A DNA stretch of 51,810 bases, from NCBI GenBank assembly GCA_013519935.1, contig JACDUA010000027.1:1-51810 (forward strand). The letters are read 5' to 3'. The notes under the pieces were generated by a model. That model ran no database searches and had not been told where the DNA came from. It saw only the letters and a list, made by a program, of their open reading frames with translations. Both the position numbers and the translations under genes were made by a program. Of the stretch, positions 2,916 to 51,810 are shown one piece after another (position 1 is the stretch's first letter; each line of letters begins with the position of its first letter). The DNA comes from Ectothiorhodospiraceae bacterium WFHF3C12 (GTDB taxonomy: Bacteria; Pseudomonadota; Gammaproteobacteria; Nitrococcales; Nitrococcaceae).

Positions 2916-3278
2916 TCAGCTCGGACGCTTGAGGATGCTCAGGATATCCTCGAGCTCCGCGCGCACCTGGCGGATAACCTGCTGGGACTGGTTGACGTCT
3001 TCCTTGTGGTTCTCGCCGGCCAGCTGCTGACGCGCCCCGCCGATGGTGAACCCCTGTCCATAGAGCAATGAACGGATCTGCCGGATGAGCAGCACGTCCT
3101 GACGCTGGTAGTAGCGCCGGTTGCCCCGGCGCTTGACCGGCTTGAGCTGCGGGAACTCCTGCTCCCAGTAGCGCAGCACGTGCGGCTTGACCCCGCATAG
3201 CTCGCTGACCTCACCGATGGTGAAGTAGCGTTTCGCCGGGATCGGCGGCAGCTCGTCGTTATTGCTCGTTTCCAGCAT
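2916..3278 (-). CDS. MerR-family transcriptional regulator
   Basis: This 120-residue protein has a MerR winged-helix DNA-binding domain at residues 17-85 ([20 protein letters not shown], then [10 protein letters not shown]) and a short C-terminal coiled coil that replaces a ligand domain. No metal-binding cysteine cluster is seen, so metal sensing is unlikely. It overlaps the end of ihfA by 20 bases. This pairing of a small MerR-type gene after ihfA is common in gammaproteobacteria; the target genes are not known from the sequence. It is the last protein-coding gene of the translation/ihfA cluster. Confidence 0.9.
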
Positions 3279-18306: not shown

Positions 18307-18592
18307 TCCGACCCTCTTACTGCGCACTTGTTCGTGAGGCCACAGCCGCAGGCCGCACACTGCCGTGACCAGGTCCGCCACTACTGCGCATTTGGATAGA
18401 ACACGCAGTAGCACCGGAGGTGGAACCCGTTCCGGAGGTTGGTTGAGTTAGCCCGTTCGGAAAGCGAGTTCCAGAGAGGCCTGCACCCACGCGACAGAAT
18501 CCGTCACTGGCGGGTTTGGGATTCTGGCCAACCCCCTCGTATAGAATTTCCAGGCGTGTGTCGGTTCTCATGGACCTATCTCTATCGCGCCG
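18307..18592. other. Intergenic gap at the left end of the prophage
   Basis: No supported gene lies between the Mor-like gene and the integrase stop. The 286 bases contain two copies of GCGCAGTA and paired CCGTTC/CCGGAGGT motifs. The prophage left attachment site would be expected here, next to the integrase, but its partner copy is outside the window and I cannot define the core. Confidence 0.4.
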
Positions 18593-19597
18593 TCAGGGAT
18601 CCCGCTGCAGGTGGCGCAGCAGATCCGTTACAGGGGTCTTCACCTTGGACAGCGGATTCGCCTTACCCATGTGCTGGGTGAGCTTCCGCATGGCCAGGTG
18701 GGTGTAGATCTTGGTGGAGTTGGAGTCGACGTGACCCATCAGCGTCTGGCGCACCAGGAGGTCCACGTCGTCCTCGGCCAGCTCCGTGCCGTAGAGGTGT
18801 CTCATGGCATGAGGGTGGAGCTCCTTCCTCGGGATCCCGGCCGCCTCACCGTAGCGCACGATCATGTCCCGGATCGTGCGCTGGGCCAGGCGGCGTTCCT
18901 CCCCACGGAACTGGTGCTCGGGCACCGTGCGGTTCCTGGTGGACACAAACAGGACCTGATCCCCGTTCTCCAAATGGCGGTCGATGTGCTCGAGCTCCTG
19001 GTGGCCAAGGTAGGCCCTGACCAGTAGCCGTGTCTCGTGTGGGGCTGGCAGCAAGCGCTCGCGATCGCCCTTCTCTCGTGTGCGGATGATCATCCACTCA
19101 ACACCGTCCACGTCGGTGAAGATCAGGTCACCTTCGTTCAGGGCGCATAACCCGCCGATCCGCAGGCCGCAACCGATCAGCACCGAGAGGATGGCCGCGT
19201 CGCGTACGCCGGTAAACGTGCTGATGTCGGGCTGCATGAGCAGCTTCTCGGCATGGCGCAGCTGCATTGGCGTGGGCAGTTTGAGGCCGGCCCTGGGATA
19301 CGGCAGGCCGGCTGCTGGATCCTGCCGGATATGGCCGCGGCTGCGGGCCCAGCTGTAGAAGCCACGGACCGCCGCCACCAGTGCCCGCCGGCTACGGGGA
19401 CTGAGCCCTTCCTTGTGCATAACCAGACCCGTGAATTGCTCCAGGTCGTCGCTGGACAGCGTCAAGAGATGGCCACCGGCCTCCTGGATCCAGCCAGCCA
19501 GGCGCCGGAGATAGCCGCCGTACTTGATGGCCGTCGCCGGCGAGCGGCCCTGGTTGTGGCGGAGGTAGTCCAGGTAGTCGTCGATGAGCTCCGTCAT
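18593..19597 (-). CDS. int: Tyrosine-type integrase of the prophage
   Basis: 334 residues from the ATG at 19597 (MTELIDDYLDYLRHNQGRSP) with GAGG upstream. It has a SAM-like core-binding domain (1-90) and a catalytic domain (105-320). Catalytic residues visible: Arg in GCGLRIGGLCALNEGDL, Lys in RTREKGDRERLL, His-x-x-Arg in HPHAMRHLYGT, His in LMGHVDSNSTKIYTH and the Tyr nucleophile in that motif. It performs site-specific integration and excision. It is the last gene of the leftward early region and lies next to the iteron-rich non-coding stretch. Confidence 0.93.
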   Translation of the reverse strand: MTELIDDYLDYLRHNQGRSPATAIKYGGYLRRLAGWIQEAGGHLLTLSSDDLEQFTGLVMHKEGLSPRSRRALVAAVRGFYSWARSRGHIRQDPAAGLPYPRAGLKLPTPMQLRHAEKLLMQPDISTFTGVRDAAILSVLIGCGLRIGGLCALNEGDLIFTDVDGVEWMIIRTREKGDRERLLPAPHETRLLVRAYLGHQELEHIDRHLENGDQVLFVSTRNRTVPEHQFRGEERRLAQRTIRDMIVRYGEAAGIPRKELHPHAMRHLYGTELAEDDVDLLVRQTLMGHVDSNSTKIYTHLAMRKLTQHMGKANPLSKVKTPVTDLLRHLQRDP

Positions 19598-19644
19598 GAG
19601 GTGCCTCGCGGGGGTCTCGTGAGCCAATAGAAGGAGGGCGGGGG

Positions 19645-19973
19645 CAGCGAAACCCGCGCACCCGCGCCACCCCCTGTTTTCTGATTGTATGTGTCTGATT
19701 TTACGGCATTCAGGGTGGCGCGTGTTGGCGCGGAAAAACCCGCGCCACCCCCTGAAACACGCGCCACCCCCAGGTGATCCGCGCGCCAGTTCCGCGCCAC
19801 CCGCGCCAGGGCTTCTACCCTTCTCGTCTCTCTTTCTTTCTCTCTCTTTTCAATAAGATAAGAGAGAGAGAATAGGGCCGTGGCTGGAAAGGCGGGATGC
19901 GCCAGAACACGGCAAACCCGCGCCACCTGGGACCAAACACGCGCCACACAGAAGCAAACCCGCCAGCGTTTTG
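19645..19973. repeat. Iteron array, probable prophage replication origin
   Basis: The core CGCGCCAC recurs at 19663, 19741, 19760, 19793, 19919 and 19940, with truncated copies at 19802 and 19960 and inverted copies at 19714-19732. The right group has units with a CAAACMCGCGCCAC pattern spaced 21 bases. Between the groups lies an AT- and pyrimidine-rich stretch (19820-19875) whose CTCTCTCTT and AAGAGAGAG arms can pair. Direct repeats flanking an easily melted segment resemble iteron origins. The 19598-20279 gap holds no gene I can support. Confidence 0.6.
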
Positions 19974-20279
19974 CCCGAAGATTCGGGCACTTATCATTGA
20001 CGTGGCCTATGATGCGCGGGTTTTGTGCATCGCCCCTGCCTCCTATTCGAAAATGGCGGCCGGCACCCCGCCCTTTTATTCCGCTCTGCGGACGGTTCGC
20101 GGATGCGGATTTGCAAGAGGTCCGGAGATGAGCAAGGGGGCGAAGGCGCGGCTGTGAGGACGTGGCCAGGTGGCCGGCGAAACCTGGTAGATGGGAAGGC
20201 CCGCGCAGGGCCCTGCTGAGCTCCTGCGGCGCGCTGTAGCGAATTCTGGGGGAGCGCGAGGGGGTGAGCCCGCTGGATT

Positions 20280-20834
20280 TCACGACAGCGCGCGGGTCTC
20301 CCCGCTGGCTGTCAGCTCCTCGTAGAGGGAAAGAAACTCGGCCTTGGCCTGGTGCCACTCCAGGGGCTCAATACTGACGTCCAGGGGGAGTTGACCGCTC
20401 GCACCGAACAAGCCGGCCCGGGCATGCCCATAGAGTTGCGCGGCCTCGGCGGCCGCGGCCCTGTCGTCCGCGTGCTTGACGCACTCCGGCAGTTGGCTGG
20501 GCAGATCGAACCGCGCCGCCACGGCGTCCCACACACGCGCCTCGAGGAGCTGGTAGGCATGCAGGTCCCGCTTCACAGGGCGGACCATATCGCCCACGTA
20601 GGCCTCCGTCGCATCGTGTAGCAGGCCGGTCAGCTGGTGCTCGGCCGGCACTGCCCTGGCCACCACTACGGAATGCTGGGCCACACTGTACGGCCGCGCC
20701 AGAGCGCCGTTGAACCGGTTGAGGCACGCCAGGTGGTGGGCGATGTCCAGGATGTCGATATCCTCCGGGCGCGGATCCCAGGGGTAGAATCGCCGACCGG
20801 TGTAGGTGAGGTTCCAACTGCCTTTGCGGGGCAT
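20280..20834 (-). CDS. HD-domain phosphohydrolase (phage type)
   Basis: 184 residues from the ATG at 20834, preceded by AGGAGAG; it begins MPRKGSWNLTYTGRRFYPWD. HD-superfamily metal ligands are visible: His in SVAQHSVVVARAV, His-Asp in GLLHDATEAYVGDM and a later Asp in CVKHADDRAAAAE. Related YfbR-like enzymes and phage proteins hydrolyse nucleotides. In a phage early operon it could adjust dNTP pools or remove signal nucleotides; the substrate is inferred only. It is the last gene before the iteron region. Confidence 0.85.
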   Translation of the reverse strand: MPRKGSWNLTYTGRRFYPWDPRPEDIDILDIAHHLACLNRFNGALARPYSVAQHSVVVARAVPAEHQLTGLLHDATEAYVGDMVRPVKRDLHAYQLLEARVWDAVAARFDLPSQLPECVKHADDRAAAAEAAQLYGHARAGLFGASGQLPLDVSIEPLEWHQAKAEFLSLYEELTASGETRALS

Positions 20835-20844
20835 GGTTGCTCTC

Positions 20845-21309
20845 CTATTCGGGGGCCGGCAGCAGCGGCGGCATCGCGCCGGACTCGTACGCCCTGGCAA
20901 TCTGAGGACGCATCCAGTCGCCCACCGTCTGCCCGTTGGGTAGCGCGATGTGGGCGAGGAACTCGTCCTCGAACTCCGTGATGCCGGATTCGACCGCCTC
21001 CAGCTTGGCCTTAATGACCAGGGCCAGCGCGCGCCAGCGCTGGCGCACGGCTTGCTCGTAGGCGGCCTCCTGCTGGGCCGGCGATCGCCGCTGCTTCTTG
21101 GCCGGCGTCAGGGTGAACTCTCGGTCGTCGGGATCCGGCATCGGGAGGTCGAAGCGAACCCGGCGGCCGCGCATCTGGAAAGCGACCACAGCGTGGCCGG
21201 CCTCCCACCCATACATGAACCCATCTGCGCCGTAGCGGCGGAGCGTGTGCTCTATCTCCGCCCGGCTCTTGTCGCTGGGGATGTCGGTCTTGTTGGCGTA
21301 CGTGGCCAC
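20845..21309 (-). CDS. Conserved phage early protein, function unknown
   Basis: 154 residues. The N-terminal half includes DKSRAEIEHTLRRYGADGFM and HAVVAFQMRGRRVRFDLPMP, features I have seen in phage and integrative-element proteins of unknown function. The middle is basic (AKKQRRSPAQQEAAYEQAV) and the C-terminus helical. There is no catalytic motif or membrane segment. It sits 10 bases before the HD-hydrolase gene in the early operon and follows a zinc-ribbon gene by two bases. Confidence 0.75.
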   Translation of the reverse strand: MATYANKTDIPSDKSRAEIEHTLRRYGADGFMYGWEAGHAVVAFQMRGRRVRFDLPMPDPDDREFTLTPAKKQRRSPAQQEAAYEQAVRQRWRALALVIKAKLEAVESGITEFEDEFLAHIALPNGQTVGDWMRPQIARAYESGAMPPLLPAPE

Positions 21310-21311
21310 TA

Positions 21312-21533
21312 TCAGCCCTCCTCTGCGGCCGCCGTCTCGTGCTCCGCCGGCGCCGGATAGCGCTCGCCACAGAACGGGCAGAATGTGGCGGCCAGGATCG
21401 TCCGCTTGCCGGGCTTGCGCCGGCGGCGGGCCTGGGTCTTAACGAGGACGCGTGGCGGCGTCTCCACGGTGGTGACGAGCTCCAGGCCGTGGACCTCGAG
21501 CTCGCGATCGATGACCTGGACGCAGTCACACAT
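21312..21533 (-). CDS. Small zinc-ribbon-like phage protein
   Basis: 73 residues from the ATG at 21533 (MCDCVQVIDRELEVHGLELV), overlapping the TraR-type gene by eight bases. It has CDC near the N-terminus and FCPFCGERYP near residue 57, which could form a zinc knuckle after a basic linker (KTQARRRRKPGKR). An upstream in-frame start would duplicate the TraR region and is rejected. Function unknown; probably nucleic-acid or protein binding. Confidence 0.7.
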   Translation of the reverse strand: MCDCVQVIDRELEVHGLELVTTVETPPRVLVKTQARRRRKPGKRTILAATFCPFCGERYPAPAEHETAAAEEG

Positions 21534-21729
21534 GGCCACGCTCCTGGTCGGCCTGGCAGTCGACGCAGAGCTCCACGCCGGGCACGAGCTCGCGCCGGCG
21601 TTGCGGGATCTCGTCGCCGCATTCGAGGCAGTGCGTGGCGCTCTCGCCCTCGTAGCGGACGCGGCCGGCAAGCGCGTCCTGGGTGACCTGGTCGATGTAC
21701 TCGCCGGCGACGTCTGCGGTGTCAGCCAT
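21526..21729 (-). CDS. TraR/DksA-type C4 zinc finger protein
   Basis: 67 residues from the ATG at 21729 (the GTG two codons earlier is less likely). The motif CLECGDEIPQRRRELVPGVE followed by LCVDCQ is the C4 finger of TraR/DksA-family proteins. Plasmid and phage TraR bind the RNA polymerase secondary channel and mimic DksA with ppGpp, so this may redirect host transcription during early infection. It overlaps its neighbours on both sides. Confidence 0.85.
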   Translation of the reverse strand: MADTADVAGEYIDQVTQDALAGRVRYEGESATHCLECGDEIPQRRRELVPGVELCVDCQADQERGHV

Positions 21730-22267
21730 GGCCACGGTCCTCTGGAGTGATAGATACGATTTCCGCGGCGACCAGCATGTCCTTGAGCCAGTCGTCGGCT
21801 TTCAAATCGTCGTCCTCGACGCTGAGGCTGTCGCCTTCCTGGTCTGTCAGGACGATCTTGGCCACGCGCGCGGCGTCGATACTTTCGATGTAGGGCAGGT
21901 CGTCGTAGGCCGCCTCCACCGCGGAGTCGATCACCGTCAGGCCCGTGCAGTTGCCGCCAACGTCCACTTCAACGGTGTGACGGTACTGCCACATTCCGAA
22001 TGTGAGGCGGACCCGTTGCGTGGCCATGAAGCCACTGGTGGTGAGATTCGGGTCGTAGTCCATCGGCCCCTTGTCCAGCTGGCGCAGCCGCCTCTCGACT
22101 GCCTTGCGCACGGTGGATTGAAGGCCTTCCACCTCCAGTGCCCGCAGACACTCGTCACGCTTGAATGACTTGACCATCTGCAGGCGGCCGTCCACAGATA
22201 CCTCGCCGACGAAATGTCCCTCGTGCATGCCCGTCGTGAACGGGCCCAGGTTGTTTTCTTCAATCAC
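21722..22267 (-). CDS. Phage early protein, function unknown
   Basis: 181 residues from a GTG at 22267, which overlaps the stop of the previous gene by eight bases. The C-terminal half reads RVRLTFGMWQYRHTVEVDVG and LTVIDSAVEAAYDDLPYIES, a beta-rich then helical domain seen in small phage proteins of unknown function (possibly the DUF5406 group; not certain). It ends acidic. There is no membrane segment. The GTG start sits on a remnant of the DHH-gene 3' end. Confidence 0.7.
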   Translation of the reverse strand: MIEENNLGPFTTGMHEGHFVGEVSVDGRLQMVKSFKRDECLRALEVEGLQSTVRKAVERRLRQLDKGPMDYDPNLTTSGFMATQRVRLTFGMWQYRHTVEVDVGGNCTGLTVIDSAVEAAYDDLPYIESIDAARVAKIVLTDQEGDSLSVEDDDLKADDWLKDMLVAAEIVSITPEDRGHG

Positions 22268-22667
22268 GTCTCACCCTCCCAGCCGATGGGCGTCTGGAAC
22301 CCCGCGGCGTTTCGGTGGCGGTTCTTGGTGTCTCTCTCACCCAGTCAGGAAGGTCAGGGAGATCGACGACCTCGCCTGCAAGCGCGTGAGAGGAATCGCC
22401 GAGGAACTGAAGCCGGCCTTCTTTCAGGAATAGGTGGCAGCGGTAATTCGGCCCGGCCGACCCGCCCCGCAGAAGGAATGAGGGGCTGAGGGTCACGTTC
22501 GAATAATCGCCGTTCCACTGCCAGACCGGACCGTGTGGTTGCCCCGTATCTTTATCGACGAACGTATGCCCGGGGACGTTCACGGCATGCAATTCTTCGC
22601 ACCCCGGGCAGTAGAAGGCCAGACGCCCGCCGAAGCCGACGATGATCTTGCTGCTCTTTACGATCAC
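22260..22667 (-). CDS. DUF6527-like phage protein with altered C-terminus
   Basis: 135 residues from a GTG at 22667 that overlaps the DHH gene stop (GTGA). Features fitting DUF6527: FYCPGCEELHAVNV near residue 18 (possible Cys/His metal site), WQWNGDYSNVTLSPSFLL, and YRCHLFLKEGRLQFLGDSSH. The last 25 or so residues (after DWVRETPR) are not family-like: the DNA there, read in another frame, is a degenerate copy of the DHH gene 3' end. The natural C-terminus therefore seems to have been replaced by read-through of a recombination scar. Confidence 0.75.
   Translation of the reverse strand: MIVKSSKIIVGFGGRLAFYCPGCEELHAVNVPGHTFVDKDTGQPHGPVWQWNGDYSNVTLSPSFLLRGGSAGPNYRCHLFLKEGRLQFLGDSSHALAGEVVDLPDLPDWVRETPRTATETPRGSRRPSAGRVRRD
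22264..22317 (-). repeat. Remnant copy of the DHH gene 3' end
   Basis: Read on the minus strand this encodes HRNAAGFQTPIGWEGET-stop, matching the DHH protein end HRGAAGFRMPVGWEGDVA-stop (22664-22720), about three quarters identical in DNA by eye. Both copies end in GTGAT, which forms the GTG start of the following gene. Confidence 0.85.
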
Positions 22668-23551
22668 GCCACATCCCCCTCCCAGCCGACAGGCATACGG
22701 AACCCTGCGGCGCCGCGGTGGCCACCACCGCCGTACTGCTTGGCGATCGCGGAGACGTCGACGCCGTCCTCGCGGCTGCGCAGGGAGAAGGTGCGAGCAT
22801 CGGCGGAGTCCCAGTAGCAGGCGGCGAACGGCTCGCCCTCGGACATAATGTGCCCGGCCTCAGTGGAGTAGAAATACGGCGCATTGAGCACAGGCACCAG
22901 GTGCCCGCCAATGCGCATCCGCTGCTCACAGGAACGGATCAGCTCGCGGACGTCCTTGCGGTGCTTGCGGAGGATGGCGCGACCCTCACGGTAGAGCTCG
23001 TAGGGGCTCTCCGCGGCCAGCGAGTCCCAGTTCTCCCAGGTGTACTCACGGGAGAACACCGCCATCATGATCTCCTCGGTGTCCTCGAGGGCGAAGCGAA
23101 AGATGTCCCTGTCCTCTACGTGGTCCACTAATGCCGGGCGTGGGGCGTCGTGGAAGAAGTCCCAGGCGATACCGGCGCCGGAGCGCTCCAGGTCGAACAG
23201 CGCGGCCATGGTGCTGGTCATGTCCGGAGCGAGCGCGAGGTGATGCTCGATCCAATCCTCCCAGCATTCCGGCGGCTCCGGCAGGCCCGCCAGGTCCTCG
23301 GCGGCGCTCTTGTGGTGGTCTAGCACCAGCACGCTGTTGGCCTGCTCGTTCATTGCCTGGAGCACGTCACGGGGGTAGGAGAAGTCCACGATGATGACGT
23401 CGCGGCCGGCGACGTCCGGCGGCGTCTGCCCGTAGCCGGCCGCGTGACACTCGATGTCCCCCAAGGCCTGGCGCACGGCCCAGGCGGCGGTAAATCCGTC
23501 GGCGCAGTTGCCGTGGTAGATGCAAAGCGGGTTCATTTCGTCGTACTGCAT
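22664..23551 (-). CDS. DHH-family phosphoesterase (phage)
   Basis: 295 residues from the ATG at 23551, preceded by AGGAGGG. DHH motifs: IYHGNCADGFTAAWAV (motif I Asp), VIIVDFSYP, VLVLDHHKSA (the DHH signature) and the C-terminal DHHA1 motif GGGHRGAAGF. Members hydrolyse phosphodiesters in oligonucleotides, cyclic dinucleotides or inorganic phosphates (RecJ, NrnA, GdpP lineages). In a phage early operon it could recycle nucleotides or degrade a cyclic-oligonucleotide defence signal; the latter is inference only. It overlaps the upstream gene by 19 bases. Confidence 0.87.
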   Translation of the reverse strand: MQYDEMNPLCIYHGNCADGFTAAWAVRQALGDIECHAAGYGQTPPDVAGRDVIIVDFSYPRDVLQAMNEQANSVLVLDHHKSAAEDLAGLPEPPECWEDWIEHHLALAPDMTSTMAALFDLERSGAGIAWDFFHDAPRPALVDHVEDRDIFRFALEDTEEIMMAVFSREYTWENWDSLAAESPYELYREGRAILRKHRKDVRELIRSCEQRMRIGGHLVPVLNAPYFYSTEAGHIMSEGEPFAACYWDSADARTFSLRSREDGVDVSAIAKQYGGGGHRGAAGFRMPVGWEGDVA

Positions 23552-41962: not shown

Positions 41963-42751
41963 TCAGACCGCCCGGCCGTCGACGTACAGGGCCGCGCCGG
42001 TGTCCGGTTTCTGGAACTGGGCGCGGAAGGTCAGCCGCTGCCAGGTGTCCCGGCTCTTCCAGGCGAGCTCGCCGTCCGGGCGCAGCTGCACCTTGGTGGC
42101 GTACAGATCCCGGTTCTTGCCGCGAGTGTTGTCCGCCACGTAGCGCAGGGCGCCGAAGATGGGGCCGTCGTCGTTGGAGGCGATCCGGGTACGGGAGGTG
42201 CTGCCCTCGGTGTAATCCACCTCGATGTCCGCCTCGGTGGCGGGATCCTGGACGATGGTGCCGCCGTCGGCCTCCGGAATGATGTAGAGCCGACCCAGAG
42301 CCAGATCCACGGTGTAGTCCGTGCCCTCGGTGTACGACGGCGTGCCGCCGGAGCCTGTGACGGTGACCGCCGAGACGTCGCGCGCACCCGTCGGGTTGCC
42401 GCTACCCTGCCCCAGCTGGTAGTACCGGTCCGGCTGCACCGTGTGCGCTTCCGCCGTCACGGATCCGCCGCCGCCGGCCACGTCCTCGGTGTCGCCCTGC
42501 AGGAACGCGGCCAGGTTGTCCATGTTCACGTTCTCGCACTCGATCACACACTCGCGGGTGACGCGGGTGGCAACGTCCTCCATGAGCTCGGCGGTGGGGC
42601 CGTCGGAGCTCCACTTCTGCACGCTCTCGTTGTTCACGCTCACGCGGAACCCGGGCGTATCGCCCAGGTAGCGCTCGCCAGTGATGGCGCCGTTGGCGTC
42701 GAACAGGTCGAAGAAGACCTTGCCGGCGCCCAGTACGATGTCCTGTTCCAT
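41963..42751 (-). CDS. Tail tube (major tail) protein
   Basis: 262 residues. It begins MEQDIVLGAGKVFFDLFDAN, a typical tail tube N-terminus of Gly-Lys-rich strands, with VSVNNESVQKWSSDGPTAEL and a DUF-like beta-rich body (DVSAVTVTGSGGTPSYTEGT, TWQRLTFRAQFQKPDTGAAL). The protein stacks into the hollow tube of a non-contractile tail. It lies between the small 53-residue gene and the chaperones, as expected. Glycine/serine loops near 94-125 may be exposed. Confidence 0.8.
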   Translation of the reverse strand: MEQDIVLGAGKVFFDLFDANGAITGERYLGDTPGFRVSVNNESVQKWSSDGPTAELMEDVATRVTRECVIECENVNMDNLAAFLQGDTEDVAGGGGSVTAEAHTVQPDRYYQLGQGSGNPTGARDVSAVTVTGSGGTPSYTEGTDYTVDLALGRLYIIPEADGGTIVQDPATEADIEVDYTEGSTSRTRIASNDDGPIFGALRYVADNTRGKNRDLYATKVQLRPDGELAWKSRDTWQRLTFRAQFQKPDTGAALYVDGRAV

Positions 42752-46559: not shown

Positions 46560-46926
46560 CGCCCTCACCGTTCTGGCCCTCGCCGGCGCCGTCACCCTGT
46601 CCCTCACCGGTGCGCGCCTGAGCCCGCTCCAGCAGGGTCTCGTCGATGGCCGCAATGAGGGTGGATCGTGTCTTGCCGGACTCCTCGGCGGCGCGCAGCT
46701 GCCGAACCTGGTCGTCGTCCAGGCCGGGCAGCGCATCGGTGACCTCCTTGACGGAGCCATCCAGCAGGGCGAGGAGCGGGTCACCGGGATCAACCGGCTC
46801 CACGGGCTCGGCGGGGGCGGTGCGCGGGATCAGCGACTCGTCCACCTCGCGGGTATCACCGGGCATGATCAGCTTGCCGCCGACGTGCACCGGGTGGGGC
46901 TTGTCGTTCGAGTACGGGACTTTCAT
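46546..46926 (-). CDS. Small head-associated protein
   Basis: 126 residues. It begins MKVPYSNDKPHPVHVGGKLI, followed by MPGDTREVDESLIP, a central acidic helix (TDALPGLDDDQVRQLRAAEE) and a Gly/Glu/Gln-rich end. Small proteins with this start sit between the capsid and connector genes of phages, similar to gpFI-like head completion factors. It lies 73 bases after the capsid gene. Confidence 0.6.
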   Translation of the reverse strand: MKVPYSNDKPHPVHVGGKLIMPGDTREVDESLIPRTAPAEPVEPVDPGDPLLALLDGSVKEVTDALPGLDDDQVRQLRAAEESGKTRSTLIAAIDETLLERAQARTGEGQGDGAGEGQNGEGGGES

Positions 46927-46999
46927 ATCGGGACCTCGGAGTCAGTGGGCCTGGAGAACCGGGCGGCCGGTAATGCCGGCCGCCCATCGGCCGCCGTGG

Positions 47000-49582
47000 T
47001 TACCGGCCGGTGGCGCTGTAGGCCAGCACGGAGGTCATGCGCGAGCGCAGCGGCGCGGGCATGTGCACGGCGTTGTACTCCTCGCCATAGGCCTGCTTCT
47101 GGCCCGTGGCCCTGCCGTTGCTGTCCACGTGCTCGAAGGGCTCGCCGGTCATAAACGGCTTGGCGACCACGTAGGACAGCCCGCCGCGCTGGCCGATGAG
47201 GATCCGCTCCTCGCCCATGTCCACCCCCGGGGCATTGGTGGACCAGGCCGGCACGCCCTTGACCATGTCCAGATCGCCCTCACCGTTGCTGTCCGTGCCA
47301 TTGCGCTTGGCGTCGGCCTCGAACATCTCGGCGTTGGTGCACTGGTTGTTGAGCACCGGGGACATCAGCAGGTAGTCCGGCCGGACGAAGCGGTCGCCGT
47401 CCAGCACCGCCTTGCGCTCGCCGATGGCCCGCAGCAACCCGTTGAGGTGCTTCTCGATGGGGTCGCTGCCGGCGTCCAGGTCGAACTTCTTGATGTTGGT
47501 GGCGTAGTCGTAGCTGACCACGTCGTCGCCGGCGCTGGCCGCGGGGGTCACCGGGGAGCCGGTCTCGTTCACGAACTGGATGTAGCCCAGGTTGTAGCTG
47601 GTCACCCGGTAGTAGGTGCCGGCGGTCTGGGTGCCCGTGCCGTCGTACTCCTCGATCGCGGAGCTGTTGAGCTGCACGGTAATCGGGTTGCGCAGGCTGC
47701 CCACGGTGTTCCCCCGCAGGTCGTGCTGCTGGAATGGCCGCACGATGGGGAACTCGACGGTCTTCACCGTGCTGACGGTGGAGCCGTCCAGCTGGCCGGA
47801 GAAATCCTCGTCCGTGACGCTGGCGGCCATGTAGGAATCCGCCTCCCGCTGCAGGGTGTTGCAGATGCGCCGGACCACCAGCTCGCGCAGCACGCGGGCG
47901 TTGGACTCCACGTTCCGGGCCCAGGCGTCCCAGTTGATCTGCGAGGTACGGGAGAAGTGCATCACCTCGTTGGAAATGAGGAACGCCAGCTTCATGGGCA
48001 GCACGTAGGCCGTGTCCATCTTCTGGGCGATGCTGGCCCGGTGGATGCCCTGGCCCTCGTAGACCACGCCCTCGTTGCTCACCGCGGAGGTGTCCCGCTC
48101 CTCGTAGGGGATCTCCGTGGTGCTCTGGGCCTGGAAGTCGGTCAGCGTCTGCACCAGCTCCAACACCCGCAGGTCCGAGAGGGCCTCGCGGATCACCGTG
48201 CGCTGGAAGCCGGCGGGCAGGTCGGTGTCGCCGATGCCCGTGGTGCCACCGGCCAGGCGCTTGCTCTCCTCGTAGAGCCGCTTGCCGTTCATGCGGTCGA
48301 AGTGGCCGAGCACTTCGTCCACGAAGCCGTTAACCTTCTCCGACAGGCGCAGGCGGCCAGAGCGGTGGCTGGAGGTCTCGCGCAGCCCCTTCAGCAGCTG
48401 CTCCTGAAGCTGCTTGGCCGTGTTGGCCTCGTCCAGGCTGACGTGGACATTGCCCTGGGGCTGTCCGAAGCCCATATTCGCCAGCTGCCGGCTGGCGGCG
48501 AGCTGCTCGCCGATCTTGCGCTGGTGCTCGGCGAAGCGCTTGACCTGGTCGTCGGTCATTTCAGCCGTGACGAGCTCGCGGGCCTCACCCAGCTGTTTCT
48601 TCTCGTCGTCAGTGATGCCCTGGATCTCGCCCACGGTCTCGTCGAAGAGCTTGAGCTTGGTCTCGCGCTGCTCCTCGAGCTTCTTGGCCTGCTCTGCCTG
48701 CTTCTGCTGCTGCTCCTCCAGGAGCTTGCGCAGCTTCTCGTCGACGTTCTGGGGCTCCTGGGCCGGCGCCTGGATGCTGAGCTGAATGGGCTCGCTCCCC
48801 ACCGCCTCGGCCAGCTTCTTGCCGGTCTCCAGGAACTGCTCCTTGAGGGCCTTGGCCGCGGCCTCGTCGTCGCCCAGATTCTTGCCGGCCTCGCGCGCGG
48901 CACTGACCAGCTGGGTCACGACCGCCTCCGCCAGCTTCAGGCTGCCGAGCTGCTCCTGCAGCTCCTTGATCAGCTTCTCCCACATGGGTGCAATCTCCTC
49001 AGAGAGAATTCGGGATACTCGGGAATCGATGAACAGCGGCCCGTCCCCGCGGCTCTCCTCCGAGAGCTCCACCGGGTCCAGGCGCTTGATGGCGGGGCGG
49101 ACCACGAGGCCGGCGCCCAGCAAGGTGGGGCCGTGCTCCTGGCGCGTCTCGTTGTCCACGTAGTTCTCGACGAACTCGGCGGAGAGGTACCGGAAGCCCT
49201 TCTCCCGGATCGCATCCCGCCCGTAGTCCGTGAGCCCCACCTCGCCACGGAGCTTGTTCCCGTCCAGGAACAGCCGCTTGAAGTAGCCAGCCGCGCCGTC
49301 GTTCGGCCGGTGCGCCACGTCCAAGGCGATGGCTTGGCCGTACACATCGGCGTCGAAGTTGCGGACCATGCTCTCCAGCATCTCGCGCGTGATCTGGAAA
49401 TCCCCGTAGCGAGGGTCCCAGAAGGAGCCGGCGCGGGTGATGGTCATGGTCGGGTTGCGACCCTCGGCCAGGGCCCGGGCATCCACCCGGTCACCGAGGC
49501 ACCGCAGTCGCAAGCCCTCAGCGGCCTCCAGCAGAAAGTGGCGACCCCAGTGCCTCGTGCCTCCGACAACCATCACTCGCAT
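47000..49582 (-). CDS. Protease-scaffold-capsid polyprotein
   Basis: 860 residues from the ATG at 49582 (AGGGG upstream). Residues about 45-190 resemble the Mu-type prohead protease (WDPRYGDFQITREMLESMVR, DVAHRPNDGAAGYFKRLFLD, FRYLSAEFVENYVDNETRQE). Residues about 200-430 form a long charged coiled coil like a scaffold (LLEEQQQKQAEQAKKLEEQR). Residues about 450-860 look like a major capsid protein (TDLPAGFQRTVIREALSDLR, DYLLMSPVLNNQCTNAEMFE, PLRSRMTSVLAYSATGR). A self-cleaving polyprotein supplying protease, scaffold and shell is the simplest reading. Confidence 0.8.
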   Translation of the reverse strand: MRVMVVGGTRHWGRHFLLEAAEGLRLRCLGDRVDARALAEGRNPTMTITRAGSFWDPRYGDFQITREMLESMVRNFDADVYGQAIALDVAHRPNDGAAGYFKRLFLDGNKLRGEVGLTDYGRDAIREKGFRYLSAEFVENYVDNETRQEHGPTLLGAGLVVRPAIKRLDPVELSEESRGDGPLFIDSRVSRILSEEIAPMWEKLIKELQEQLGSLKLAEAVVTQLVSAAREAGKNLGDDEAAAKALKEQFLETGKKLAEAVGSEPIQLSIQAPAQEPQNVDEKLRKLLEEQQQKQAEQAKKLEEQRETKLKLFDETVGEIQGITDDEKKQLGEARELVTAEMTDDQVKRFAEHQRKIGEQLAASRQLANMGFGQPQGNVHVSLDEANTAKQLQEQLLKGLRETSSHRSGRLRLSEKVNGFVDEVLGHFDRMNGKRLYEESKRLAGGTTGIGDTDLPAGFQRTVIREALSDLRVLELVQTLTDFQAQSTTEIPYEERDTSAVSNEGVVYEGQGIHRASIAQKMDTAYVLPMKLAFLISNEVMHFSRTSQINWDAWARNVESNARVLRELVVRRICNTLQREADSYMAASVTDEDFSGQLDGSTVSTVKTVEFPIVRPFQQHDLRGNTVGSLRNPITVQLNSSAIEEYDGTGTQTAGTYYRVTSYNLGYIQFVNETGSPVTPAASAGDDVVSYDYATNIKKFDLDAGSDPIEKHLNGLLRAIGERKAVLDGDRFVRPDYLLMSPVLNNQCTNAEMFEADAKRNGTDSNGEGDLDMVKGVPAWSTNAPGVDMGEERILIGQRGGLSYVVAKPFMTGEPFEHVDSNGRATGQKQAYGEEYNAVHMPAPLRSRMTSVLAYSATGR

Positions 49583-49602
49583 CGCACAACCCCTTAAACG
49601 CA

Positions 49603-49644
49603 AAAAGCCGGTGGGACCGCTTCCACGGTCCAACACCGGCTTTC
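49603..49644 (-). terminator. Rho-independent terminator after the FRG gene
   Basis: A strong two-part stem (AAAGCCGGTG 49605-49614 with CACCGGCTTT 49635-49644, inner GGACCG/CGGTCC) is followed on the minus strand by five T residues. It isolates the FRG gene from the capsid polyprotein gene. Confidence 0.85.
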
Positions 49645-49750
49645 GCTTCGCGCGGTTGACTCCCCGCGCCTACGTACGCCTTCAGACGTCGCCTACATTA
49701 GCGCCCCTGGCAAGACGATATGAGGGACGGGGATGTCAGACGACCGAACT

Positions 49751-50530
49751 TCACTCCTCGAAATCAACTAAGCCGACCTGTGGGTTGGTCACATGCTCAC
49801 CCGTAACCTGCATTAGCTCATCCACAGATCGCGCGAGTCCGTCGAGTCCTGGGAACAGAGAATTAGCGGTGATGTTCATGGTTCGCAACTTACGCAAAAA
49901 GAACACCTTCACACTAGCCGGAATGATTATCTTGAAGACGCTCCGTTCGTCATGGCCCGCAACCTGACTCAAAATTTCTTTATGGTCGGCGAGAATATTT
50001 CGGCTGATGCTGAAACAGCCTTGCTGGGCGATCATTCGCTCCGTTTGCCTCGTGGTACTGATAAACTCCAAGATATGGGGAGCACCGGCCTTGCGATAGT
50101 GCCGTTCGTACTCCTTCTGCAGATTCGGTTGTTTTGCCCCATCGCCGTGCGTCTGCCTCATCCAGCTAGCGACCCGGCCCTTGTGAACCACCCATACAGC
50201 ACCATCACATTCTGGCTCTGAGGTGCAAGCGAAATACGCCGCCACGTAAATCGACTCACACCAATCTAGAAGCCTAGTTGGCGCTCCATGATGTTGCATA
50301 ACGGCCCACCAAACAATCGGGTTGCCGAGCCCTGCCAGAATACTATGTGATAGATGCAAGTGCGCCTGCTTCTGGAACTCCTCAAGCGATTTCCGCTCGA
50401 CCAACAGCGCCATTTCTTCCCCGATTGAAAACTGGCGGAGCCTCCGCAAGAACGTAGGCGACAGTCCCCATTCGCAATTACCTTGGCCTCGATAGGCAGT
50501 AACACCTTCCCCAGGCCAGTCGCGATCCAT
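49751..50530 (-). CDS. FRG-domain protein, 5' end near an IS insertion
   Basis: 259 residues from the ATG at 50530. FRG-domain features: VTAYRGQGNCEWGLSPTFLR near the N-terminus, MQHHGAPTRLLDWCESIYVA, AQQGCFSISRNILADHK. The function of the FRG domain is not established; it occurs in accessory and possibly defence genes. The IS starts 12 bases upstream of the ATG, and the frame before the YRGQG motif is only about 12 residues, so the natural N-terminus or promoter may have been removed. GC is lower than in the late genes. A terminator follows. Confidence 0.82.
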   Translation of the reverse strand: MDRDWPGEGVTAYRGQGNCEWGLSPTFLRRLRQFSIGEEMALLVERKSLEEFQKQAHLHLSHSILAGLGNPIVWWAVMQHHGAPTRLLDWCESIYVAAYFACTSEPECDGAVWVVHKGRVASWMRQTHGDGAKQPNLQKEYERHYRKAGAPHILEFISTTRQTERMIAQQGCFSISRNILADHKEILSQVAGHDERSVFKIIIPASVKVFFLRKLRTMNITANSLFPGLDGLARSVDELMQVTGEHVTNPQVGLVDFEE

Positions 50531-50624
50531 GCGATCAGAGGTGGACCCCGGGGACTGGACAGAGATCGAAGCCTGCTAAGTGGAATCTTCTGGCGTAGAG
50601 TTCTCGAGAGAGAAGGAGCGGAAG

Positions 50625-50915
50625 ATGACCCGGAGAAAGCGACGTAATCACTCATCGGCGTTCAAGGCGAAGGTGGCGCTGGCGGCGATCAAGGGCGAGC
50701 GCACGGTGGCGGAGCTGGCCGAGCAGTTCGACGTTCACCCCAACCAGATTCAGGACTGGAAGCGACGCCTGGCGGAAGGCGCCGAAGACGTGTTCGGTGG
50801 CAACGCGGTCAAGGCGCAGCATGACGAGCAGGAGGTAGAGAAGCTCCACGCCAAGATCGGGCAGTTGGCGATGGAGAACGATTTTTTATCCAAAGTGCTC
50901 GGGCGCGACCGATGA
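50625..50915 (+). CDS. IS3-family transposase OrfA
   Basis: 96 residues from the ATG at 50625. HTH_Tnp_1-type helix-turn-helix (VAELAEQFDVHPNQIQDWKR) and a coiled coil (QEVEKLHAKIGQLAMEN). The slippery run T TTT TTA in NDFLSK allows -1 frameshift into orfB. OrfA binds the IS ends. Confidence 0.88.
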   Translation: MTRRKRRNHSSAFKAKVALAAIKGERTVAELAEQFDVHPNQIQDWKRRLAEGAEDVFGGNAVKAQHDEQEVEKLHAKIGQLAMENDFLSKVLGRDR

Positions 50916-51757
50916 GCGAGCGACGCGCCGGGATAGCCATCGAGCACCCATTGCCGAAGACGCGGCGCTGCGAGCTGCTCGGGCTCGCCCGCTCGAGTGC
51001 CTACTACCGCCCCGCGCCGGTCTCGGAGCGGGATCTGGCCTTGATGCGGCTGATCGATGAGATCCATCTGCGCTGGCCGTTCTACGGCAGCCGTCGCCTG
51101 CGTGACGAGCTCCAGGCACAGGGCTACCGGATCAACCGCAAGCACGTCCAGCGGCTGATGCGTCAGATGGGCTTGAGAGCGCTGTATCCGCGGCGTCGAA
51201 CGAGCCAGCCGGGCAAGGGCCACAAGATCTACCCCTACCTGCTGCGGGGTCTGTCCATCGAGCGGGCGAACCAGTGCTGGTGCACTGACATCTGCTATAT
51301 CCCCATGGCCAAGGGGTTCATGTACCTGGTGGCGATCATGGACTGGCATTCCCGGCGGGTACTGTCGTGGCGCGTGTCCAATACCCTGGACACGGACTTC
51401 TGCATCGATGCCCTGGAAGAGGCCTTGAAGCGCTTTGGGGCGCCGGAGATCTTCAACACCGACCAAGGGGCGCAGTTCACCTCCGAGGCCTTCACCGGTG
51501 TGCTCAAGGCTCACGGGGTCGCGATCAGCATGGACGGCAAGGGCCGCTGGGTGGACAACGTGTTCGTCGAGCGGTTGTGGCGCAGCGTCAAGTACGAGGA
51601 CGTCTACCTGCGCGCCTACGAGACGCCGGCGGAGCTACGCGCCGGGCTTGGCCGCTACTTCGAGTTCTACAACACCCGGCGCCGTCACACGGCGCTGGAC
51701 CGACGCACCCCGGATGCGGTGTACTTCAAACAGGTTGCCCCGGAAATGGCGGCCTGA
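50912..51757 (+). CDS. IS3-family transposase OrfB
   Basis: 281 residues, in an ATGA overlap with orfA. The HTH_21 region (LRDELQAQGYRINRKHVQRL) and the rve integrase core are complete: DDE residues in CWCTDICYIP (Asp), FNTDQGAQFTSE (Asp) and VDNVFVERLWRSVKYEDVYL (Glu). It ends in YFEFYNTRRRHTALDRRTPD. This copy looks intact and probably active, unlike the remnants at the left end of the window, which belong to a different IS3 subgroup. Confidence 0.9.
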   Translation: MSERRAGIAIEHPLPKTRRCELLGLARSSAYYRPAPVSERDLALMRLIDEIHLRWPFYGSRRLRDELQAQGYRINRKHVQRLMRQMGLRALYPRRRTSQPGKGHKIYPYLLRGLSIERANQCWCTDICYIPMAKGFMYLVAIMDWHSRRVLSWRVSNTLDTDFCIDALEEALKRFGAPEIFNTDQGAQFTSEAFTGVLKAHGVAISMDGKGRWVDNVFVERLWRSVKYEDVYLRAYETPAELRAGLGRYFEFYNTRRRHTALDRRTPDAVYFKQVAPEMAA

Positions 51758-51810
51758 AACCCAAGGCGGATTCCACTTAAGGCGGTGTCCAGGATTCAGG
51801 GTCCATTTCT

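Follow-up and report, generated by a model that had tools for sequence, protein, structure and literature searches.

A conserved internal start signal at the protease/scaffold joint of a fused protease-scaffold-capsid gene

The 51,810-nucleotide contig JACDUA010000027.1 of Ectothiorhodospiraceae bacterium WFHF3C12, analysed here over its whole length and referred to as the window, carries a fused prophage gene for a protease, a scaffold and a capsid protein at 47000..49582 (−). The gene begins with an ATG at 49582, comprises 860 codons and a stop, and was translated into 860 residues with 0 internal stops. This intact translation rules out a hidden stop or frameshift splitting the gene; the original prediction, made from the sequence letters, had raised such an unnoticed split, and none was found. 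The same prediction had proposed to search for internal starts near the beginning of the coiled coil, and a strong in-frame start, Met200, was located there. As a conserved signal this internal start is strongly supported by the comparison of related genes described below.

Microcystis phage yong1 encodes a protein with 46% identity to the window protein over 98% of its length, and relatives are encoded at 72 loci of IMG/VR and 14 loci of GTDB. Because of these matches we regard the 860-codon frame as a real gene and not just as a long frame in GC-rich DNA. A frame of 983 codons on the opposite strand was set aside, as it runs antisense to a gene with full-length relatives. A single stop-to-stop frame of 846-948 codons is present at 68 of the 87 loci (the 86 IMG/VR and GTDB loci plus yong1); interruptions occur in L077 and L091, the front part is missing from L073, and contig ends truncate most of the other loci. 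The fusion is likewise present in full-length uninterrupted relatives, which share 44-61% identity. Since the yong1 alignment begins at residue 14, the N-terminal extension ahead of the protease core is probably coding. For the comparisons, 6 duplicates and 14 too-short frames were dropped from the 87 loci and the window, leaving 68 distinct genes, among them the partial loci L049, L063, L066 and L067 and the interrupted L091; 35 lineages form a subset of these at less than 60% identity. In the yong1 record the fused gene is labelled hypothetical, and a 77-residue frame beside it (L002:19699-19932) is labelled major head protein, which looks like a misannotation.

The protease core occupies residues 42-176 (49055..49459 (−)). 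It matched the Pfam family Mu-like_Pro (PF10123) with 45.3 bits, compared with a gathering cut-off of 25.2, and 57 of 60 protease parts (alignment A6) matched this family at E 0.001. A structure model of the protease (mean predicted local distance difference test score, pLDDT, 83.7) was compared with solved structures. VIA-align superimposed 108 residues both on the varicella-zoster virus protease 1vzv (Z 10.0, root mean square deviation (rmsd) 3.0) and on T4 gp21 5jbl (Z 8.7, rmsd 3.3); Foldseek alone was borderline, with a best E of 1e-3 and TM-scores below 0.5. Judged by this model and the Pfam match, the protease is of the Mu I type with the assemblin/T4 gp21 fold. Two residues are invariant in 61/61 aligned proteases, His91 (codon 49310..49312 (−)) as candidate catalytic histidine and Ser134 (codon 49181..49183 (−)), within YLSAEF, as candidate catalytic serine. 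A low-confidence hhalign comparison (probability 4%, E 0.01) places them opposite a His and a Ser (YLSA) of Mu I.

The scaffold region (residues 200-370; 48473..48985 (−)) is helical in a model of residues 200-860, which reached a mean pLDDT of 79.6 overall and mostly 60-76 in the scaffold blocks. It is followed by a linker with the conserved motif QL..MG(F/Y)...G (residues 366-380; 48443..48487 (−)), whose glycines G371 and G377 are kept in 68/68 genes and which overlaps a model segment with a pLDDT below 50. This linker is a candidate maturation cleavage region and likely the place where the scaffold is removed. Locus L073 encodes a capsid protein alone (L073:3193-4680), with no recognisable protease or scaffold, and the window protease found no match on its 8.6-kb contig. 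The L073 capsid start at 3193 lies 24 codons ahead of the equivalent of residue 391, that is near residue 367, which agrees with cleavage in the linker.

The major capsid domain comprises residues ~402-860 (47003..48379 (−)). Its model aligned with the HRP29 procapsid 8em6 (Z 16.6, rmsd 3.7, 265 residues), T4 gp24 1yue (Z 16.1, rmsd 4.0, 262 residues) and HK97 prohead II 2gp1 (Z 14.0, rmsd 4.1, 232 residues). Searched at E 0.1 against the sequences of solved structures, a profile of the scaffold-capsid part returned no hit. As modelled, the C-terminal part is a major capsid protein with the HK97 fold. The open translation, the PF10123 match, the helical scaffold model and the HK97 fold together bear out the original prediction that a Mu-type protease, a scaffold and a capsid-like region lie in one 860-residue frame.

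At the joint between protease and scaffold the sequence around residue 200 reads GAGGAGATTGCACCCATG. The in-frame ATG of Met200 (48983..48985 (−)) is preceded at a distance of 9 nucleotides by the Shine-Dalgarno sequence GAGGAG (48995..49000 (−)), with a duplex energy of −9.2. A product initiated here would be a nested scaffold-capsid protein of 661 residues (47003..48985 (−)). The joint start codon is ATG in 62 and GTG in 6 of the 68 distinct genes, in all cases at most two alignment columns away, and GTG is used where the joint residue is Val. Pairing with the 16S tail had a median of −5.9 kcal at the joint, compared with −1.5 at 1236 other internal ATGs; a strength of at least −4 kcal was reached by 66 of 68 joints and by 8.5% of the other ATGs. 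The joint ranked first among the internal starts in 45 of 68 genes. A Shine-Dalgarno-like stretch at a domain border might also act by slowing the ribosome, aiding folding with no initiation, and its position at the border would fit. Pausing alone would not require a start codon at a constant spacing, but all 68 genes have ATG or GTG there, with GTG where the residue is Val, and the site of phage Mu where the protease part ends is annotated as a start. We therefore consider a pure pausing function very improbable.

A column scan for start codon plus Shine-Dalgarno sequence scored the joint in 88% of all 68 genes and in 91% of the 35 lineages. The corresponding figures were 31% and 23% for the next interior column and 30% and 39% for the start of the gene itself. 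When the joint was compared with synonymous recodings, the real signal averaged −6.2 and the recodings −4.2; it was stronger than the recoding mean in 61 of 68 genes, and among the 35 lineages this held for 30 (sign test 1e-5). On average, this pattern shows selection on the joint signal beyond the amino acids. These data bear on the view that the gene makes a single polyprotein, in which the 860-residue protein would be the only product, protease and shell would occur 1:1 and the protease would excise itself after assembly, the joint Met being unused or a relic of separate genes. The frame is indeed open from end to end, and the upstream start of the window has a usable ribosome site, AAGGGG at 49590..49595 (−) with a duplex energy of −7.8. 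A relic would decay, yet lineages with less than 60% identity keep both the start codon (GTG where the residue is Val) and the Shine-Dalgarno sequence. A single product thus appears unlikely. The original prediction had expected a 1:1 ratio of protease to shell unless internal starts exist; the exception it allowed has strong evidence on its side, and the 1:1 ratio itself is disfavoured.

Several observations weigh against an initiation function of the joint. The recoding evidence is weak for the individual gene (median share of equally strong recodings 0.38), because Glu-rich pairs favour GAGGAG and the core lies mostly in one codon register, namely in 29 of 35 lineages, with three others having no such core. 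Weak signals of −3.0 were found at the joints of L038 and L086, and the −7.8 of the upstream start in the window is also decent. Furthermore, the score misses an annotated case: the Nu3 start of phage lambda scores −2.7. Use of the internal start is predicted from sequence conservation. Since Nu3 is annotated as nested in spite of its score, a weak score leaves a start possible. The Z start of Mu, which served as a positive control, scored −7.4.

Phage Mu provides the closest layout. Like the window gene, Mu has a protease of the I type (PF10123) and the order protease, scaffold, capsid, and its record (AF083977) annotates the start and ribosome site of scaffold Z inside the protease gene I, at the end of the protease part, with AGGAG 9 nucleotides upstream. 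The window gene shares with Mu I/Z the in-frame start and ribosome site at the protease/scaffold joint. It does not share the separately encoded capsid protein: T of Mu is a capsid gene of its own, with a four-base overlap with the end of I/Z, whereas the window gene has no stop between scaffold and capsid. A profile comparison of Mu T with the scaffold-capsid part of the window protein gave no match, and neither did a tblastn search with the window protein against Mu positions 18500-23500, a stretch that begins inside gene I, at E 1. Phage lambda likewise combines protease and scaffold in one gene, C, with Nu3 annotated as a nested scaffold product (record J02459); unlike in the window, the lambda capsid protein is encoded by a separate gene, E.

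Full fusions with the capsid, which the original prediction had considered uncommon, turned out to be known already and not rare. The tripartite capsid gene of Gifsy-2 is reportedly a published fusion. NCBIfam contains two families named as protease/capsid fusion proteins, NF045540 (scaf_prot_MCP1) and NF045541 (scaf_prot_MCP2), and one NCBIfam fusion family was found above its cut-off in 24 of 398 genomes of a phylum sample. Gifsy-2 and NF045540 (ClpP-like prohead protease/major capsid protein fusion) resemble the window gene in that a single gene encodes the protease, a middle region and the capsid and has an ATG with AGGAG at the joint; they differ in their ClpP-type protease, and a profile comparison of the Gifsy-2 protein with the scaffold-capsid part of the window gave no match. 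NF045541 (prohead protease/major capsid protein fusion) has the same architecture as the window gene. Membership of the window protein in either family was rejected: the whole protein gave no match at E 1 and its two halves gave none at E 0.01. The window gene is thus a variant outside the curated families. Elsewhere in the source genome, partial matches below the cut-off were seen to scaf_prot_MCP2 (C2:49787-50683) and to scaf_prot_MCP1 (on C2 and at C119:20131-20538); the C2 match, at a locus separate from the window, may be another prophage capsid gene.

According to the main text of its description, gp5 of Pseudomonas phage MD8 also provides protease, scaffold and capsid functions from a single gene; it differs from the window gene in that its protease was modelled on ClpP (PMC8508860). 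That main text contains no word starting with 'internal' (PMC8508860). Among the papers listed from the open-licence part of PubMed Central, the MD8 description was the one account of the fusion (PMC8508860), and no description of an internal start in a tripartite gene was found, which leaves print at large uncovered.

The comparison was extended to more distant fusion genes. The capsid part of the window protein matched a single PHROG, 22848, at E 5e-8, which is listed as of unknown function. Brevibacillus phage Emery gp6, considered here together with this PHROG, likewise combines a fused protease-scaffold-capsid with a joint start, and in the capsid part it is distantly related to the window protein (~21% identity). 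In the Emery-like family, taken without L103 (partial match) and with some near-identical loci (L098, L100), the joint start was present in 12/12 genes, with AAGGAGG or GGGAG-type sites and ATG in 7 and GTG in 5; here too, GTG is used where the joint residue is Val. The Emery record also contains, in the portal region, a gene gp5 joined from two pieces and overlapping gp4 (L003:3171-5350), possibly by a programmed frameshift. Gene 30 of virus Rctr41k, found via the protease side of Emery gp6 only, bears the record label 'putative phage capsid protein and protease'; it and three relatives have AAGGAG and ATG at the joint (4/4; L224, a partial match, was left out). PHROG 807 (tail protein with Ig-like domain) was matched by both the Rctr41k fusion protein (L006:2569-5181) and the major tail protein of the window (41963-42751), and this points to an inserted domain shared between tail and capsid proteins. 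ES18 was tried as a further fused case and rejected, its coat protein being annotated as a separate gene.

Among ClpP-type genes the best 80 of 518 relatives were taken; after removal of the short frames L149-L151 and of duplicates, 63 distinct genes including Gifsy-2 remained, and the joint start was present in 17/17 representatives at less than 90% identity. The scaf_prot_MCP2-like set comprised 29 loci, some of them under the family cut-off, plus Gifsy-2, which is therefore counted in both sets; L133 (partial) was left out. Judged by eye, a Shine-Dalgarno sequence with ATG follows the protease in 28 of these 30 genes. Five of them (L109-L113) have two such sites at the joint, 22-30 codons apart.

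These sets also contain points that speak against a general role of the joint. Of the two exceptions, L129 has no joint start and L134 has no recognised protease part ahead of its capsid part. The automatic count for the scaf_prot_MCP2-like genes was 23 of 27, compared with 238 of 1227 control windows. Their column scan peaked at the joint when all 30 were used (0.94 of those with residues there), and the joint fell outside the top six columns in the 23 genes at less than 80% identity, where the linker contains many gaps. High scores were also seen in ClpP-type genes at the gene start (0.88) and at interior columns (0.76 and 0.47). All four genes of the Rctr41k set have an ATG within the protease that scored −7.2, and L006 and L222 have further sites. 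On the other side, the joint start is kept also in fusion genes with another type of protease, which is a further argument against the single polyprotein. On balance, protease-scaffold-capsid fusion genes in general probably make two products: the main shell subunit would be a scaffold-capsid protein that lacks the protease, and the full fusion would be a minor protease carrier. As the joint start occurs with both ClpP-like and assemblin-like proteases, the two-product solution would be either very old or reached more than once.

A leader hairpin with a T run, terminator-like in appearance, directly precedes the window gene (49602..49643 (−)). By our own scanning rule, a hairpin with T run was present in 41 of the 61 relatives with enough upstream DNA, compared with 3 of 67 control stretches from the gene's interior; a simple terminator scan reported none at 49602-49643. 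In some relatives the leader (window 49602-49750 (−)) shows a AAGGCATAACGC-like motif, then the hairpin with T run and then the start codon. A motif search in the leaders scored 324.9 in the real set (best of four runs, the others 306-311), compared with 283-294 in three base shuffles. In phage lambda, the pR'-tR' region consists of a promoter and an early terminator under antitermination, and by analogy the leader could be arranged in this way.

The hairpin is also relevant to the possibility that the short product comes from a short mRNA of its own, transcribed from a point within the protease region, and not from internal initiation on the long mRNA. The herpesvirus protease-scaffold UL26/UL26.5 offers a precedent, in which the nested scaffold product comes from its own transcript and the capsid protein gene is separate. 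The hairpin with T run found ahead of the gene in 41 of 61 relatives could restrict the long transcript, which would favour such an arrangement. However, the sole sigma-70-like site in 46800-50600 lies at 49953-49926, upstream of the gene, with 0 inside the protease region; the scan covered the sigma-70-like type and found 1 site where 0.5 were expected by chance. In addition, the conserved ribosome site at the joint would be required on either mRNA. An internal promoter as the source of the short product is therefore unlikely.

The single frame of the window gene likely yields two nested products, the 860-residue protease-scaffold-capsid protein and the 661-residue scaffold-capsid protein from the internal ATG. 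From the fused frame, the modelled folds and the conserved start signal we infer the following use of the two starts, product ratio, co-assembly and cleavage. Initiation at the upstream start would give the protein with all three domains. Initiation at the internal ATG, with its own Shine-Dalgarno sequence, would give the protease-free protein. Most of the procapsid would consist of the short form, much as with the HK97 capsid precursor, and a minority of the long form would co-assemble via the common scaffold and capsid parts and so bring the protease into the shell. As the frame runs without a stop from protease to capsid, all protease produced must carry a capsid part. After assembly, the protease would remove the scaffold, probably within the linker 366-380, to leave the mature capsid protein. 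The relative use of the two starts would determine the dose of protease. The arrangement would correspond to the I/Z plus T layout of Mu minus the stop between scaffold and capsid, the nested scaffold Z becoming a nested scaffold-capsid fusion.

Ahead of the fused gene, positions 49751-51810 contain a gene matching PHROG 4962 (unknown function), which resembles an FRG-domain protein, and transposase-like frames, apparently IS3-like, that run off the contig end. The final 1274 bases of the window are identical to the end of another contig, C116. This contig carries relatives of frames at L004 whose positions correspond to those of the yong1 genes annotated for packaging and portal. Together with the identical end, this suggests the usual order of terminase, portal and fused gene.

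A phage that fuses its protease to the shell protein faces the puzzle of how to avoid hundreds of protease copies per capsid, and a conserved internal start would be a simple answer. Our results also correct the annotation of PHROG 22848, listed as of unknown function, and of the yong1 and Emery genes, listed as hypothetical proteins. They place the fusion genes alongside the Mu and lambda genes for nested scaffolds. If the two-product scheme is true generally, single-product accounts of tripartite capsid genes would need revision.

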